Shown here in pieces: positions 7,159 through 12,511 of a stretch of 64,000 bases of DNA. Within the stretch, counting starts at the first letter, position 1; every line of letters starts with the position of its first letter. The stretch comes from Alphaproteobacteria bacterium (GTDB lineage: Bacteria; Pseudomonadota; Alphaproteobacteria; Caulobacterales; Aquidulcibacteraceae), in contig WGOB01000055.1 in the NCBI GenBank assembly GCA_016124255.1, positions 1-64,000 of the forward strand, read 5' to 3'. Below the pieces are notes generated by a model. That model saw nothing but the letters and a program-made list of their open reading frames with translations. It was not told the DNA's origin and did no database searches. The position numbers and the translations under genes were made by a program.

Positions 7159-7947
7159 ATGGCTTCGTTTCTCCTGCGCATTGCCGTGCTGATCGCCGCG
7201 GTCGTCCAGATCGCGTTCCCGCTTTTCGTCAATCCGTTTCGCGACGGGCAAGACGCGGTGCGCGCGGGGGAAGCCTCGCAGATCGAGCCGGCGGAATACG
7301 CCTTTGCGATCTGGGGGCCGATTTATCTGCTCGCGCTGATCTACGCTCTCTGGCAGCTGACCCCGCGCGGGCGCGCCGATCCGACGACAGCGCAGATCGC
7401 ACCCTACACGATCGCGCTCTATGCGGGGTCGTCGCTGTGGCTTTCTGCGGCGCAATGGGGCCCGCTGTGGGCGACGATGCCCACTCTCGCCGCCATGGCC
7501 GTGTGCGCCGCCGTCGCGCTTCTCTATGCGCTGCGCGGCGGGGGCGGATGGCGGATGTGGACGATCGTCACCCCTTTCGGGCTTTATGCCGGATGGACGC
7601 TCTGCGCGACGTTCGTAAACATCGCCGAGGTCGCGCCGCAATACGGCTTTGACCGGTTCGGCCTTTCGATCCCGGTTTTCGGCGCGCTCTCCCTCGCGTG
7701 CGCGACGGCGATCGCAGCGTGGATGCTGTGGCGAACGCAGGGCGAGCTGAGCTATGCAGCGGCGCTGCTTTGGGCGCTGATCGCCATCATCATCGCGGGT
7801 CGTACGCGCGGCGCTGACGACATCGTCCTGACGACGGCGGGTGTGAGCGTGGTGGTGGTCGCGGTGCTCGCTTTTGCGTGCAAATTATGGGGCCGCTCCA
7901 CTACGGCGACAGCCGGTGCGGATGGGCGAGCGGCGCCGCTACGCTGA
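7159..7947 (+). CDS. TspO/MBR-related multi-pass membrane protein
   Basis: 262 residues with about seven to eight hydrophobic segments and a short polar C-terminus. The motif EYAFAIWGPIYLLALIYALW (about 45-64) is the hallmark of the tryptophan-rich TspO-like relatives (FAIWxxIY). Members are inner-membrane proteins linked to tetrapyrrole sensing or transport, but the long bacterial branch seen here has no assigned function. No good ribosome site precedes ATG 7159; another ATG four bases earlier is in a different frame. The end overlaps the last 9 bp of the convergent gene at 7939, so no terminator separates them. Confidence 0.7.
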   Translation: MASFLLRIAVLIAAVVQIAFPLFVNPFRDGQDAVRAGEASQIEPAEYAFAIWGPIYLLALIYALWQLTPRGRADPTTAQIAPYTIALYAGSSLWLSAAQWGPLWATMPTLAAMAVCAAVALLYALRGGGGWRMWTIVTPFGLYAGWTLCATFVNIAEVAPQYGFDRFGLSIPVFGALSLACATAIAAWMLWRTQGELSYAAALLWALIAIIIAGRTRGADDIVLTTAGVSVVVVAVLAFACKLWGRSTTATAGADGRAAPLR

Positions 7948-9009
7948 GAGGCGCGCGGTGCAATATTGGATCGCGCGGCGCGCCTTCGCGGCCCAGTCCG
8001 ACGGCGGATCGGTGAAGAGATAGAGCTCGAAATGCGATTTGGCGTCGGCCACGGCGCCGCGCTTGAGTTCGAGTTGCGCGAGATTGAAGCGCGCGTCCGC
8101 GTACCGCGGCTCCAGGCGCAGCACCTGGATGAGCGCCTCGCGCGCTTCGGCGAGCTTGCCCAGCGCTTCGAACGCCTGCGCGAGATTGTAGCGCGCCTCG
8201 AGGAAGTCCGGATCGCGGGCGAGCGCGCGCCGGAACGCCAGGGCCGCCTCAGCATAGGCGCCTGCGGCGAGGTGGACGTTGCCGAGATTGTAGCAGGCGA
8301 TGGGATCCTTGCGGTCGCCCCGCGCGCTCATGTCGTAGAGCCGCGCGGCTTCGGCGGCATCGCCCTCGGCTTCGGCCAGCGCGGCGGCTTCGAACAAGTC
8401 GTCGAGCGAGGCTTGGCCTTCCTCCAGCGGCAGATAACCTTGTCCTTCGAGTGTGGAGAGCCCGCTCTCCCATTGCAGCGCCGCCTCGCCGCGGGCGTCG
8501 AGTACGATCTTGCGCCGGCCCTTGGGCGCGCGGTCGCGCGCCTTGGTCAGGATACGGACGATCTCGCCCAGCGTGCGCCCCGCGGCGGCGAGGTCGCCCG
8601 CGCTCTTGATCGCGGGGGCGTCGGCAAAGCGGCAGAGATCGCCTTCCGCGCGGACGATGTCGAACGCGGCGAGGATGGCGATGTCGTCGCTGGACAGCCC
8701 AGTCTCGCGCAGCAGCGGCGCGAGCGGGAGAGACGGCGCCGGCTCTTCGTTTTCCGCGATCAAATGCTCGGTGAAGCGGCGCTCGCCATAGACCGGCACG
8801 CGCCGCGCCTTGGCCGCGGCGAGACGCGCGGCCAGGTGGCCCGGCTCAATCAGCGTGGCGGCGCGTGCGCCGACCACGAGCATGTCGCTGCGCAGGGTCA
8901 GATCGCGGGCGACGCGGGCGCCGCGACGCACGATCGCCGCCGCGAGCCGCTCGCGCACTCCTGCGGTGAAGCGCCCATAGAGCGCCGCGGACTTGCCCTG
9001 CAAATCCAT
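7939..9009 (-). CDS. BRCT-like / HTH / TPR protein in the NHEJ operon
   Basis: 356 residues. Residues about 1-85 look like a BRCT domain: MDLQGKSAALYGRF, then GARVARDLTLRSDMLVVGA and VPVYGERRF. About 100-150 resembles a MerR-type helical DNA-binding or dimerisation module (LSSDDIAILAAFDIVRAEGD). From about 215 to the end there are three or more tetratricopeptide repeats (CYNLGNVHLAAGAYAEAALA, ARYNLAQAFEALGKLAEA, ARFNLAQLELKRGAV). BRCT domains bind DNA ends or phospho-proteins and TPRs bind proteins. It lies 24 bp downstream of ku on the same strand, so a role with Ku/LigD is likely but unproven. Domain calls are by eye; the BRCT call is the one to test. Confidence 0.75.
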   Translation of the reverse strand: MDLQGKSAALYGRFTAGVRERLAAAIVRRGARVARDLTLRSDMLVVGARAATLIEPGHLAARLAAAKARRVPVYGERRFTEHLIAENEEPAPSLPLAPLLRETGLSSDDIAILAAFDIVRAEGDLCRFADAPAIKSAGDLAAAGRTLGEIVRILTKARDRAPKGRRKIVLDARGEAALQWESGLSTLEGQGYLPLEEGQASLDDLFEAAALAEAEGDAAEAARLYDMSARGDRKDPIACYNLGNVHLAAGAYAEAALAFRRALARDPDFLEARYNLAQAFEALGKLAEAREALIQVLRLEPRYADARFNLAQLELKRGAVADAKSHFELYLFTDPPSDWAAKARRAIQYCTARLSA

Positions 9010-9033
9010 CCCTGACCTCGACCGAACCGAATC

Positions 9034-9987
9034 CTACCCGGCTTTGGTCTTCTTCGCAGCCGGGGCGGCCTTCTTGGCGGGAGTCTTGGCTGGAGTCTTT
9101 TGGGCGGTCGACTTCTTGGCTGCGGCCTTTTTCGCGGGGGCTTTTTCGGCTTTCCCGTCAGCGGCTTCCGGCTCCTCGGCCTTGGCCTTGGAGAGGCTGG
9201 GCGCGGGGGGGCGGCGCTCTTCCTCGATCGAGCGGCGCAGCGCATCCATCAGGTTGATGACGTTGCCGCGCTCCGGCGCCTTGGTGATGACCGGCTCGCC
9301 GCCCGCGATCTTGGAGCGCACCAGCGCCAGCAACGCCTGCTCGTAACGGTCCTCGAACGCGGCGGGATCGAACGGGATCGTCTTCTGCTTGATGATCTGC
9401 TCGGCCATGGTGAGCATGTCGTCGGAAATCTTAACGTCCAGCGGCTCGAACGCGTCGGCGGCGCTCTTCACTTCCTTGGCCGCGCGCAGCGTGGTCAGCA
9501 GGAAGCCCTCGGGCTTGGGCTGGATGGCGACGAGGCGTTCGCGCCCGGAAAGCACGATGCGCGCGATGGCGACCTTGTTGGTCTCCTGCATCGCCTTGAG
9601 GATGACGGCGTAGGTCTCTTCCGCGACCGGGCCGTCCGGCGCCAGGAAATAGGGGGAGTCCAGATAGATCGGGTCGATGTCGGGGGCGTCGACGAACCCG
9701 TCGATGCTGATCGTCTTGGAGGACTCGATTTCGATCTCTTCGAGCTCCTCGGGCGTGACGATGACGTATTTGTCCTTCTCGAACTGGTAGCCCTTAACCA
9801 AATCCGCGCGCTCCACCTCGCCGAGTTCAGGGTCGTGGTAGCGCTGGGCCACGCGGTTGCGCGTGTCCTTATGGATCATGTTGAACGACACGCGGCTCGC
9901 GGACGAGGCGGTCGCGGAGAAGAGCTTCACCGGGCATGCGACCAGCGAGAGCTTCAGATAACCCTTCCAATAGGCGCGGCCCGCCAT
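9034..9987 (-). CDS. ku: Ku DNA-end-binding protein
   Basis: 317 residues. The N-terminus MAGRAYWKGYLKLSLVACPV is diagnostic of bacterial Ku; the core follows through YQFEKDKYVIVTPEELEEIE and SIDGFVDAPDIDPIYLDSPY. The homodimer encircles double-strand ends and recruits LigD for non-homologous end joining. After about residue 255 there is a low-complexity tail rich in Lys/Ala/Pro with AKK/PAK repeats, comparable to the lysine tails of some actinobacterial Ku proteins, which affect DNA binding and threading. Start ATG 9987. It sits 61 bp downstream of ligD and 24 bp upstream of the BRCT/TPR gene, all on the minus strand. Confidence 0.97.
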   Translation of the reverse strand: MAGRAYWKGYLKLSLVACPVKLFSATASSASRVSFNMIHKDTRNRVAQRYHDPELGEVERADLVKGYQFEKDKYVIVTPEELEEIEIESSKTISIDGFVDAPDIDPIYLDSPYFLAPDGPVAEETYAVILKAMQETNKVAIARIVLSGRERLVAIQPKPEGFLLTTLRAAKEVKSAADAFEPLDVKISDDMLTMAEQIIKQKTIPFDPAAFEDRYEQALLALVRSKIAGGEPVITKAPERGNVINLMDALRRSIEEERRPPAPSLSKAKAEEPEAADGKAEKAPAKKAAAKKSTAQKTPAKTPAKKAAPAAKKTKAG

Positions 9988-10048
9988 GGCGTTGCTCCGG
10001 AGTCAGATGAATGGGCGGGCCCGCTGCAAGTTTCGCATCAGGATCGCT

Positions 10049-12511
10049 CTAGGATTTCAGGCCGACGGCTTGACGCGCTTTGCGCGAGATGTCGGCTGCG
10101 GAGGATTCTAATCCATCCCAGGGGTCTTTCGCCAGCCTGGAGAGCCGTTGCGGCACGCTTTTGCGATCAAAAACGCGCGGGCCCTCCAGGCCTCGGAGCT
10201 CCTCCCAGGCGATCGGCGCGGCGACCGTGAAGCGCTCATTGGCGCGCAGCGAGTAAGAGGCGATGGCGCTGGAGCCACGGACATTGCGCAGATAATCGAC
10301 ATAGATGCGTCCCTTGCGGGCGTCCTTGTGCGGCGCCTTGGTGAACACTTTTGGTGAATCGTCGGCGGCGCGCGCGGCGAATGCTTCGGCGAAACTGCGC
10401 AAATTCGCCCAGTCGCAGCCCGGCGCCAGCGCCATGACGAGATGCAAGCCCTTGCCGCCGGTTGTGCGCAGAAAGGGTTCGAAGCCGAGATCCTTGAGCC
10501 GGCCGCGCAGATGTTCCGCAGCGGCGCAGATGTGCGGCCAATCGAGCGAGGGATCTGGATCAAGATCGACGACGAAACGGTCGGGGTGTTCGGGATCGTC
10601 GACCCGGCAGCCCCAGGGGTGAAATTCGATCGCCCCGAATTGCGTGAGGCCGAGGAAGCCGGCGGCGGAGTCGACATAGATGTAGTCTTCGCGGCCCTTT
10701 TCGCCGGAGAGCGCGATCGTCTCCACGCCCGGCGGCAGCCCGGCGAACGCGTGGCGCTGGTAGAAACAATCCTCGCGCGCGCCGCTCGGACAGCGGATGA
10801 GGGAGAGCGGCCGTCGCAACAGCTCCGGCAGCATCCAGTCGCCGACGCGCGCATAGTAAACGGCGATGTCGAGCTTGGTCGTGTCCGTCGTTCCCAGCAT
10901 CTTGCGGTCGGGATTGGTGAGACGGATCGCGGCGAGGTCCCGGTCGGTGACGAGTTTCGGTTTCGAGGAACGCACGGGCTTCCTGTAGGGCGTGAGGCCG
11001 AGCAGCACCGGCTGGCGCGGCGCCCCGTCGGGCGCGCGGCTATTGAAGGCAACGCGGGCGACGGCGCTCGGTTCCGTCCAGATCGGCTTCGGGACCGGCG
11101 CCTTGGCGGGCATTGCCTCTTTGACCTTGCGCGCCGCGAGCTTCGCCAGCCACGCTTCGGAGATCGCGTCGCTTGGGCAGGTGACGCGGCCGACAAACTC
11201 AAGCGCGCCTTCGCTGTTCGCTTCCGCAATCAGGAAGGCGGCGATGCGCTTCGGCGTGGAGAGCGTGTACCCGACGACGACGAACTCGCCGACATAGGCG
11301 CGCTTGATCTTGAGCCATGTCTTGGTGCGGCCCTGCACGTAGGGCGCATCCGCGCGCTTCGACATCACGCCTTCAAGGCCCATGCGGCAGGCGTGCGCGA
11401 AGAGGTCCGCGCCGGCGCCGATGAAATGCTCGCTGAGCTGGATCGGCGAGCGCGCGTCGATGTGCGGCGCCAGCAGGCCTTCGAGCGCGGCCTTGCGGTT
11501 GATCAGCGCAGCGGCGGAGAGGTCGTAGCCGTCGAGATAAAGGAGATCGAAGGCGAAGAAGGTGAGATCGCGGTCGCGCCCTTCGGAAAGCGCGGTTTCC
11601 AGCAGCGCGATGGAGGTGACGCCGCGGGGATCCTGCACTGTGACTTCGCCGTCGATCAGCGCGGATGAGCACTTGAGCGCCTTGAACGCGTCGGCCAGCG
11701 CGCGATAGCGGTGCGTCCAATCGTGCTTGTTGCGGGTGAAGAGGCGGACCTCGCCGTCTTCGATGCGCACGATCGTTCTGTACCCGTCATATTTGAGTTC
11801 GTGTAGCCAGCCTTCGCCCTCCGGCGGGCTGTCGCCGGCGCTGGCGAGATGGGGCGAGACGTCCTTCGGCATCGGCGCCTTCTTGGCGCCGGCGATGCGG
11901 TCGGCTTTCGGGCGGGGGGCGCGCGGCCGGTCGGCGGGGCCGATCGTGCGCTTCAGGTCTTCTACGCTAAGTCCGGAGAGCACGCTGTTCGGCGCCGCGG
12001 CCAGGACGTCATGGTCTGCAAGCGGACGAACCTCGTCGTCGCGCTCCTTGATCAGCAGCCAGTTCTTCGGGTCCTTGTTGAGGCGGACGAGCGTCCAGCC
12101 GCCGCGCAGCTTCTCGCCGGCGAGGCGCATCTTGAGTTCGCCGGCCTTGAGCGCGGCGATCGGATCGTCTTCCAGCGTCACCCATGGGCCCCGATCCCAG
12201 ACGATGACGACGCCGGCGCCATATTCGCCGGCCGGGATGGCGCCTTCGAAGCGGCCGTATTCGAGCGGGTGATCCTCGGTCTGCACCGCGAGGCGGCGGA
12301 CCTTGGAATCGAGACACGGCCCTTCCGGCACGGCCCAGCTTTTCAGGACGCCGTCGATCTCGAGGCGGAAATCATAGTGGAGCCGGCGTGCGGCGTGCTT
12401 CTGCACCACGAAGACCGGCGCCTCGCGCGGCGCAGGCGCCTCGGCGCCTTCCGGCTCGGCTGTCACGGTGAAGCGCCGCTTGGCGCGGTAGGGCTTGAGC
12501 TTGTCGGCCAT
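10049..12511 (-). CDS. ligD: Multifunctional DNA ligase D (PE-LIG-POL)
   Basis: 820 residues with all three LigD modules. Phosphoesterase first (about 30-190): QKHAARRLHYDFRLE carries the metal and catalytic residues H39, H45 and D47, with EDHPLEYGRFEG following. The ATP-dependent ligase is in the middle: ELKYDGYR, with K240 as the adenylated lysine, and VIDGEV-like ALIDGEVTV. The primase-polymerase is last (about 525-800), with the acidic pair in VVDLDPDPSLDWPH. This PE-LIG-POL order is the Pseudomonas/alphaproteobacterial type. It processes, fills and seals Ku-bound breaks. First gene of the minus-strand ligD-ku-BRCT/TPR run; 240 bp upstream is non-coding and must hold the promoter. Confidence 0.97.
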   Translation of the reverse strand: MADKLKPYRAKRRFTVTAEPEGAEAPAPREAPVFVVQKHAARRLHYDFRLEIDGVLKSWAVPEGPCLDSKVRRLAVQTEDHPLEYGRFEGAIPAGEYGAGVVIVWDRGPWVTLEDDPIAALKAGELKMRLAGEKLRGGWTLVRLNKDPKNWLLIKERDDEVRPLADHDVLAAAPNSVLSGLSVEDLKRTIGPADRPRAPRPKADRIAGAKKAPMPKDVSPHLASAGDSPPEGEGWLHELKYDGYRTIVRIEDGEVRLFTRNKHDWTHRYRALADAFKALKCSSALIDGEVTVQDPRGVTSIALLETALSEGRDRDLTFFAFDLLYLDGYDLSAAALINRKAALEGLLAPHIDARSPIQLSEHFIGAGADLFAHACRMGLEGVMSKRADAPYVQGRTKTWLKIKRAYVGEFVVVGYTLSTPKRIAAFLIAEANSEGALEFVGRVTCPSDAISEAWLAKLAARKVKEAMPAKAPVPKPIWTEPSAVARVAFNSRAPDGAPRQPVLLGLTPYRKPVRSSKPKLVTDRDLAAIRLTNPDRKMLGTTDTTKLDIAVYYARVGDWMLPELLRRPLSLIRCPSGAREDCFYQRHAFAGLPPGVETIALSGEKGREDYIYVDSAAGFLGLTQFGAIEFHPWGCRVDDPEHPDRFVVDLDPDPSLDWPHICAAAEHLRGRLKDLGFEPFLRTTGGKGLHLVMALAPGCDWANLRSFAEAFAARAADDSPKVFTKAPHKDARKGRIYVDYLRNVRGSSAIASYSLRANERFTVAAPIAWEELRGLEGPRVFDRKSVPQRLSRLAKDPWDGLESSAADISRKARQAVGLKS

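Follow-up and report, generated by a model that had tools for sequence, protein, structure and literature searches.

Introduction

Which part, if any, does the gene of a tetratricopeptide repeat (TPR) protein play in bacterial NHEJ when it is located directly behind ku? The question is raised by a stretch of alphaproteobacterial DNA of 64,000 nucleotides, which was analyzed as a whole and is referred to as the window, and in which a gene of 356 codons follows ligD and ku. For a BRCT, MerR or TPR factor associated with LigD or NHEJ, no description was found in the open-licence literature, and an earlier mention elsewhere remains possible. Likewise, NHEJ reviews and survey work present no such third factor in the passages that were searched (PMC1378119, PMC7719229, PMC8656161), and the large NHEJ survey among them counted only the neighbourhoods of ku and ligD and mentions neither BRCT nor tetratricopeptide. 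In Alphaproteobacteria, a noncanonical PolX is reported to be a frequent operon neighbour of ligD, and such operons can thus hold further factors (PMC9226535). Another extra bacterial NHEJ protein was proposed with the mycobacterial Sir2, which is unrelated to the protein described here and, unlike it, does not represent an operon-linked family (PMC3102665).

Operon Organization in the Window

The earlier note on this DNA had placed ligD, ku and the third gene on one strand at intergenic distances of 61 and 24 bp, which the coordinates of the open reading frames confirm exactly: all three genes are encoded on the minus strand, with 61 bp between ligD and ku and 24 bp between ku and the third gene, whose product is termed BTPR (BRCT-wHTH-hairpin-TPR) in the following. 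The features of the locus are:

10049..12511, minus strand: ligD, 820 aa, with phosphoesterase, ligase and primase-polymerase domains (Pfam LigD_N, DNA_ligase_A_M, LigD_Prim-Pol; TIGR02776, 563 bits)
9034..9987, minus strand: ku, 317 aa, with a Lys/Ala/Pro-rich C-terminal tail (TIGR02772 Ku_bact, 286 bits, cut-off 150)
7939..9009, minus strand: third gene, BTPR, 356 aa, an open reading frame with homologues that adjoin ku (AlphaFold2 mean pLDDT 89.6)
8746..9009, minus strand: BRCT domain, BTPR residues 1-88 (family profile leading to the LigA and RFC1 BRCT; VIA-align Z 10.1 to LigA over residues 1-85)
8527..8739, minus strand: MerR-type winged helix, BTPR residues 91-161, DNA-contacting basic residues lost (GlnR match; hhalign to the beta HTH and hairpin)
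8419..8523, minus strand: beta-hairpin linker, BTPR residues 163-197, with a conserved GQ (G189, Q190) and strands at 167-170, 176-180 and 183-186
7945..8406, minus strand: TPR domain, BTPR residues 202-355 (Pfam TPR_16; Foldseek; conserved Asn)

Ku and LigD of the window exceed the Pfam and NCBIfam cut-offs, LigD being of the three-domain type and Ku ordinary. Thus, the locus resembles two-component NHEJ in its operon, its Ku and its three-domain LigD, and differs from it by the third gene linked to ku. The homologues of this gene are named merely "tetratricopeptide repeat protein" in databases. A spurious open reading frame is ruled out, as conservation of the gene extends over many families at 23-84% identity.

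The genome of the window features a second ku-ligD pair on another contig (C3 of G000; L139:9054-10541), the Ku of which belongs to a different clade. No BTPR-type gene was present in the 10.5 kb around this second ku, where the contig ends inside ligD. In two genomes of the f34 group, a small CBS-domain-like gene was recognized, by eye only, just upstream of ligD and on the same strand (L038:10461-10892, L040:8921-9385). One of these loci further contains an open frame of 714 aa which fuses the LigD phosphoesterase-ligase to the Ku core and lacks the polymerase domain (L040:6764-8908), possibly a collapsed MAG assembly or a real fusion.

Linkage to ku in Alphaproteobacteria

The labels Alphaproteobacteria and Burkholderiales of the sampled genomes were inferred from named relatives on plasmids, and some of the genomes are MAGs. 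A whole-genome search in 385 genomes of the window's class revealed BTPR in 10, all of them among the 55 genomes with Ku (p 1.7e-9 for this occurring by chance, hypergeometric), and all 10 genes adjoin ku. Nine more, all beside ku, were obtained from a phylum-wide sample, and 56 further Ku loci added BTPR in G074, G206, G282 and, cut by a contig end, in G130. About 14 of the 55 alphaproteobacterial Ku genomes consequently possess BTPR; the 41 without it indicate that the protein is dispensable for NHEJ as such.

The gene is found on the same strand as ku and immediately downstream of it, often with a 4-bp overlap. Each of the 25 homologues that were placed follows ku directly, or else its locus reaches a contig end at that point. 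Among 131 Ku rows, every gene of this type was downstream of ku and on the same strand. No full-length BTPR homologue was encountered away from ku in the sampled genomes. The question posed by the earlier note, whether homologues would keep to the vicinity of ku and ligD, is therefore answered positively with regard to ku only, since full-length homologues occur exclusively beside ku and the gene accompanies ku rather than ligD. G244 is among the cases in which the gene follows ku even though ligD is detached from it or lies on the opposite strand. The ku-BTPR arrangement is not due to chance and recurs in every homologue found. A TPR protein that became a neighbour accidentally is ruled out by the exclusive linkage to ku.

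Plasmids of Sinorhizobium, Ensifer, and Pararhizobium carry BTPR as well (88 plasmid records in all, one of them Azospirillum), and the ku-BTPR junction was inspected directly for Sinorhizobium meliloti pSymB, which has the form with BRCT, and for Pararhizobium pPspA13a. Using the N-terminus of the window protein as query, tblastn gave no match among the plasmids, so that a Rhizobiaceae homologue was needed as query. A scan of genome contigs yielded only one congener and one TPR-only match. Genes for an alpha/beta hydrolase and an exodeoxyribonuclease III (ExoIII) are often located 3' of the gene, i.e., in f177, probably Rhizobiaceae (L092-L100, L131), and in Pararhizobium operons.

Relatives Without BRCT in Burkholderiales and Other Gammaproteobacteria

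A protein consisting of MerR HTH, hairpin and TPR without BRCT (HTPR) was first met in one genome outside the alpha class, directly after ku. Among 200 genomes of its order (Burkholderiales), 16 were found to carry HTPR, with 17 good copies between them; every copy follows ku directly, and these 16 genomes all belong to the 33 with Ku (p 6.9e-15, hypergeometric). The whole-class sample contributed seven more HTPR genomes, again all with the gene after ku. Named carriers are Cupriavidus metallidurans p2, Variovorax plasmid 2 and Burkholderia vietnamiensis pBVIE01. On the latter two, ligD is either missing from the vicinity or encoded on the opposite strand, showing that the gene follows ku and not ligD. 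In L192, L208 and C. metallidurans, the gene is situated 3' of ku but before ligD within the operon. By profile comparison, the full length of the beta protein is covered by residues 92-336 of the alpha protein (prob 99.9, E 1e-34). The family core does not comprise the BRCT domain; the beta/gamma relatives retain the HTH-hairpin-TPR architecture in its absence.

In the Ku tree, the HTPR-linked Ku proteins of the beta/gamma members form one clade (100/96). Likewise, 20 of the 25 BTPR-linked alphaproteobacterial Ku proteins fall into one clade (100/99), with five located elsewhere. Thus, the pair was mostly inherited together. Related Ku lineages without the gene exist.

The BRCT Domain

The BRCT domain which the earlier note had presumed at the N-terminus is borne out by the predicted structure. 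Searched alone against Pfam and NCBIfam, BTPR of the window matched no BRCT or MerR model at E<=1, and a single-sequence HMM search would accordingly miss both domains, which emerge only with the family profile and in the predicted structure. The proposed comparison of residues 1-90 with BRCT profiles hence succeeded with the family profile, pointing to LigA and RFC1, and failed for the sequence of the window alone. A profile from the aligned N-termini of 12 BTPR homologues (A4) identified E. coli LigA in the PDB at 2.7e-8, and a profile of 22 rows the RFC1 BRCT at 6e-6. In the phylum sample, A4 gave a match in 378 of 398 genomes: besides the full-length relatives, a second match (profile positions 4-88) occurred in nearly every genome, and the two such loci inspected represent the C-terminal end of the NAD-dependent ligase LigA. 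One family member, L041, lies above the Pfam BRCT cut-off (23.1 vs 21.3 bits).

AlphaFold2 on the family alignment resulted in a mean pLDDT of 89.6 for the whole BTPR and of 87.4 (pTM 0.83) for residues 1-197 alone. The N-terminus was folded separately because Foldseek matched the complete model to nothing but TPR proteins; the best match of the N-terminal model was LigA (E 2.8e-3). VIA-align provided a Z of 10.1 for LigA (rmsd 2.4, 76 residues) and of 9.6 for RFC1, and the 50 best rows for residues 1-88 were BRCT domains with few exceptions. In the predicted structure, these residues feature the BRCT fold order beta-alpha-beta-beta-alpha-beta-alpha, with strands at 7-11, 32-34, 43-46 and 73-75 and helices at 18-28, 58-68 and 76-84. 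The assignment of residues 1-88 as BRCT is settled.

Single BRCT domains of the RFC1/LigA/PARP1 subclass have DNA, and not phosphopeptides, as their ligand (PMC9359705). The BRCT of BTPR looks like a member of this DNA-binding LigA/RFC1 subclass and not like a phosphopeptide reader, whereby DNA binding is deduced from the subclass and from the net charge, which is positive throughout the 22 alpha members (+4 to +12). The signature of phosphopeptide readers such as BRCA1 and TopBP1, a Ser or Thr closing strand 1 together with a Lys in helix 2, does not fit the 22 sequences. The phosphate-binding Thr is kept in one of them and otherwise replaced by I, V, Y or L, the helix-2 position is occupied by Arg for Lys in 19, and the pocket Gly is kept in 21. 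An Arg at the position of RFC1 R423 is present in 10 of the 22; with the Thr lost and this Arg only partly kept, 5' phosphate binding in the manner of RFC1 is not supported. The analogy to adaptors of the ligase IV/XRCC4 style drawn in the earlier note is weak as well, owing to the Thr kept in only 1/22 and the apparent affiliation of the domain with the single DNA-binding LigA/RFC1 type. Fold, sequence profile, GG turn and final aromatic helix are shared with the BRCT of LigA and RFC1, whereas about 10 additional residues ahead of helix alpha2, the replacement of the TG-motif Thr by I/V/Y in 20/22, the fusion to HTH and TPR and the location beside ku distinguish the BTPR domain. A Ku-linked variant of 220 aa (L187:1484-2146), in which the BRCT is joined straight to the TPRs without the HTH, may be a MAG artefact.

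The MerR-Type Winged Helix and a Possible Regulatory Function

The MerR-like helical module assumed for the third product was correctly recognized. In residues 86-160, the fold corresponds to that of the MerR protein GlnR bound to DNA (4r4e; Z 9.3, rmsd 4.0, 75 residues), and HTH plus hairpin of the alpha members are homologous to those of the beta members (hhalign prob 97.5, E 4.9e-12), of which 13 out of 13 match Pfam MerR_1 (first member 39.4 bits, cut-off 21.6). In the hairpin, Q190 of the GQ motif is found in 22/22 and G189 in 20/22 sequences. The winged-helix fold is common to BTPR and the MerR family, and the beta/gamma relatives exceed the Pfam cut-off; in contrast to the MerR family, BTPR possesses no effector-binding domain, TPRs follow the HTH, and the alpha members lack the basic wing.

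The main rival to a role as Ku partner is that the protein regulates transcription locally: its MerR-type HTH would bind the ligD-ku promoter while the TPRs (and the BRCT) sense a partner, resulting in autocontrol of the operon by its last gene. A MerR-type HTH beside possible target genes typically points to a regulator, its fold corresponds to that of DNA-bound GlnR, and in the beta/gamma members it is basic and passes the MerR_1 cut-off. However, the HTH of the alpha members, the window included, is neutral to acidic (net charge -6 to +2, compared with +6 to +14 in beta members), and the residues that make the wing of the beta HTH basic are missing from it in the alpha-beta alignment; judged by net charge and alignment, the alpha HTH does not show the basic recognition helix and wing of MerR regulators. 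Furthermore, the gene lies 3' of ku, and inside the operons of L192, L208 and C. metallidurans it does so ahead of ligD; BRCT domains are not known to be usual in transcription factors. A footprint comparison found no basis, the ligD upstream regions of three congeners being too divergent by eye. Regulation of the operon is hence considered unlikely, albeit to be taken seriously. Since the HTH has lost its basic residues in the alpha members, which possess a basic BRCT instead, DNA binding seems to have passed from one domain to the other.

The HTH-hairpin module also occurs in proteins of about 160 aa from Gammaproteobacteria (L217-L226), which have the same MerR HTH and a "..GdvvLv...AfdalsGQeW" hairpin and no TPR; a ParA-type ATPase adjoins in 9 of these 10 loci. 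This suggests that the module has a ParA-linked family. The possibility that the profile merely caught generic MerR regulators was rejected, as such matches (L217-L226) adjoin the ParA ATPase and not ku and are devoid of TPRs.

The TPR Domain, Ku Tails and Further Alternatives

TPRs at the C-terminus of the third product were confirmed, with TPR_16 (68.5 bits, cut-off 32.7), TPR_19, TPR_1 and TPR_2 all exceeding the Pfam cut-off in BTPR of the window. The best Foldseek matches of this region included consensus TPRs and the TPR of OGT. Asn 241 is invariant, Asn 244, 275 and 309 are conserved to at least 90%, and the TPR domain is net negative in 21 of the 22 alpha members. Asparagines of this kind in the OGT TPR bind the peptide backbone.

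The Ku tail of M. tuberculosis contacts DNA and LigD (PMC9638933). Alphaproteobacterial Ku proteins with BTPR seemingly have longer basic tails (median 51 vs 34 residues, according to a crude motif-based cut). With 28 Ku rows without the motif and a beta control of one row, no conclusion rests on tail lengths.

A dedicated chaperone or adaptor, serving co-translationally in the folding, assembly or turnover of Ku without any role at DNA ends, appears improbable. The immediate downstream position and the 4-bp overlaps suggest coupled translation, TPRs are common in co-chaperones, and the gene tracks ku, not ligD; nevertheless, BRCT and HTH, both nucleic-acid-associated modules, are left unexplained, and related Ku lineages manage without the protein. 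Least credible is a protein-protein scaffold connecting NHEJ to another pathway, the BRCT recruiting an end-processing enzyme such as the ExoIII of Rhizobiaceae operons, in line with the bridging to other factors that the earlier note had proposed: TPR plus BRCT would make a plausible scaffold and ExoIII and hydrolase genes do lie 3' of the gene in f177 and Pararhizobium, but the canonical phosphopeptide-binding Thr is lost in 21/22, ExoIII is absent from the operon of the window, and the beta form has no BRCT.

Proposed Role as a Dedicated Ku Partner

The reading preferred here, with somewhat more confidence than doubt, is that BTPR and HTPR are dedicated partners of one proteobacterial Ku lineage and a third component of its NHEJ. 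The repair role is inferred from genomic linkage, and no functional, interaction or expression data are at hand. The acidic TPR domain with its OGT-like asparagine ladder would bind a peptide in extended form, for which the basic, disordered C-terminus of Ku is the most plausible candidate, and this docking may tether BTPR to Ku-bound ends. In alpha members, whose HTH has lost the basic wing, the basic BRCT of LigA/RFC1 type would then contact DNA by the break, and in beta/gamma members the basic MerR-type HTH would presumably do so at the break. The putative effect is a steadier end synapsis or a tuning of the hand-over of ends from Ku to LigD.

Conclusion

Bacterial NHEJ is usually described as a two-protein system, and here a gene occurs beside ku in Alpha- and Betaproteobacteria and in none of the sampled genomes without ku. 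This linkage points to a third, dedicated partner that may often accompany Ku and LigD in bacterial end joining and the function of which is inferred. The further-reaching idea of an overlooked, widespread third NHEJ core protein, i.e., a Ku-specific, DNA-contacting TPR factor to which alpha members added a ligase-type BRCT and which is a convergent counterpart of eukaryotic end-synapsis accessory factors, is tentative and stands a little short of an even chance in our judgement. The ku-linked gene in S. meliloti pSymB and in Cupriavidus and Burkholderia plasmids makes the claim testable in laboratory strains. BTPR may also explain the uneven performance of minimal Ku-LigD pairs moved between species. 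If it is true that BTPR acts at ends, it would represent a bacterial counterpart to the eukaryotic accessory factors of end joining.
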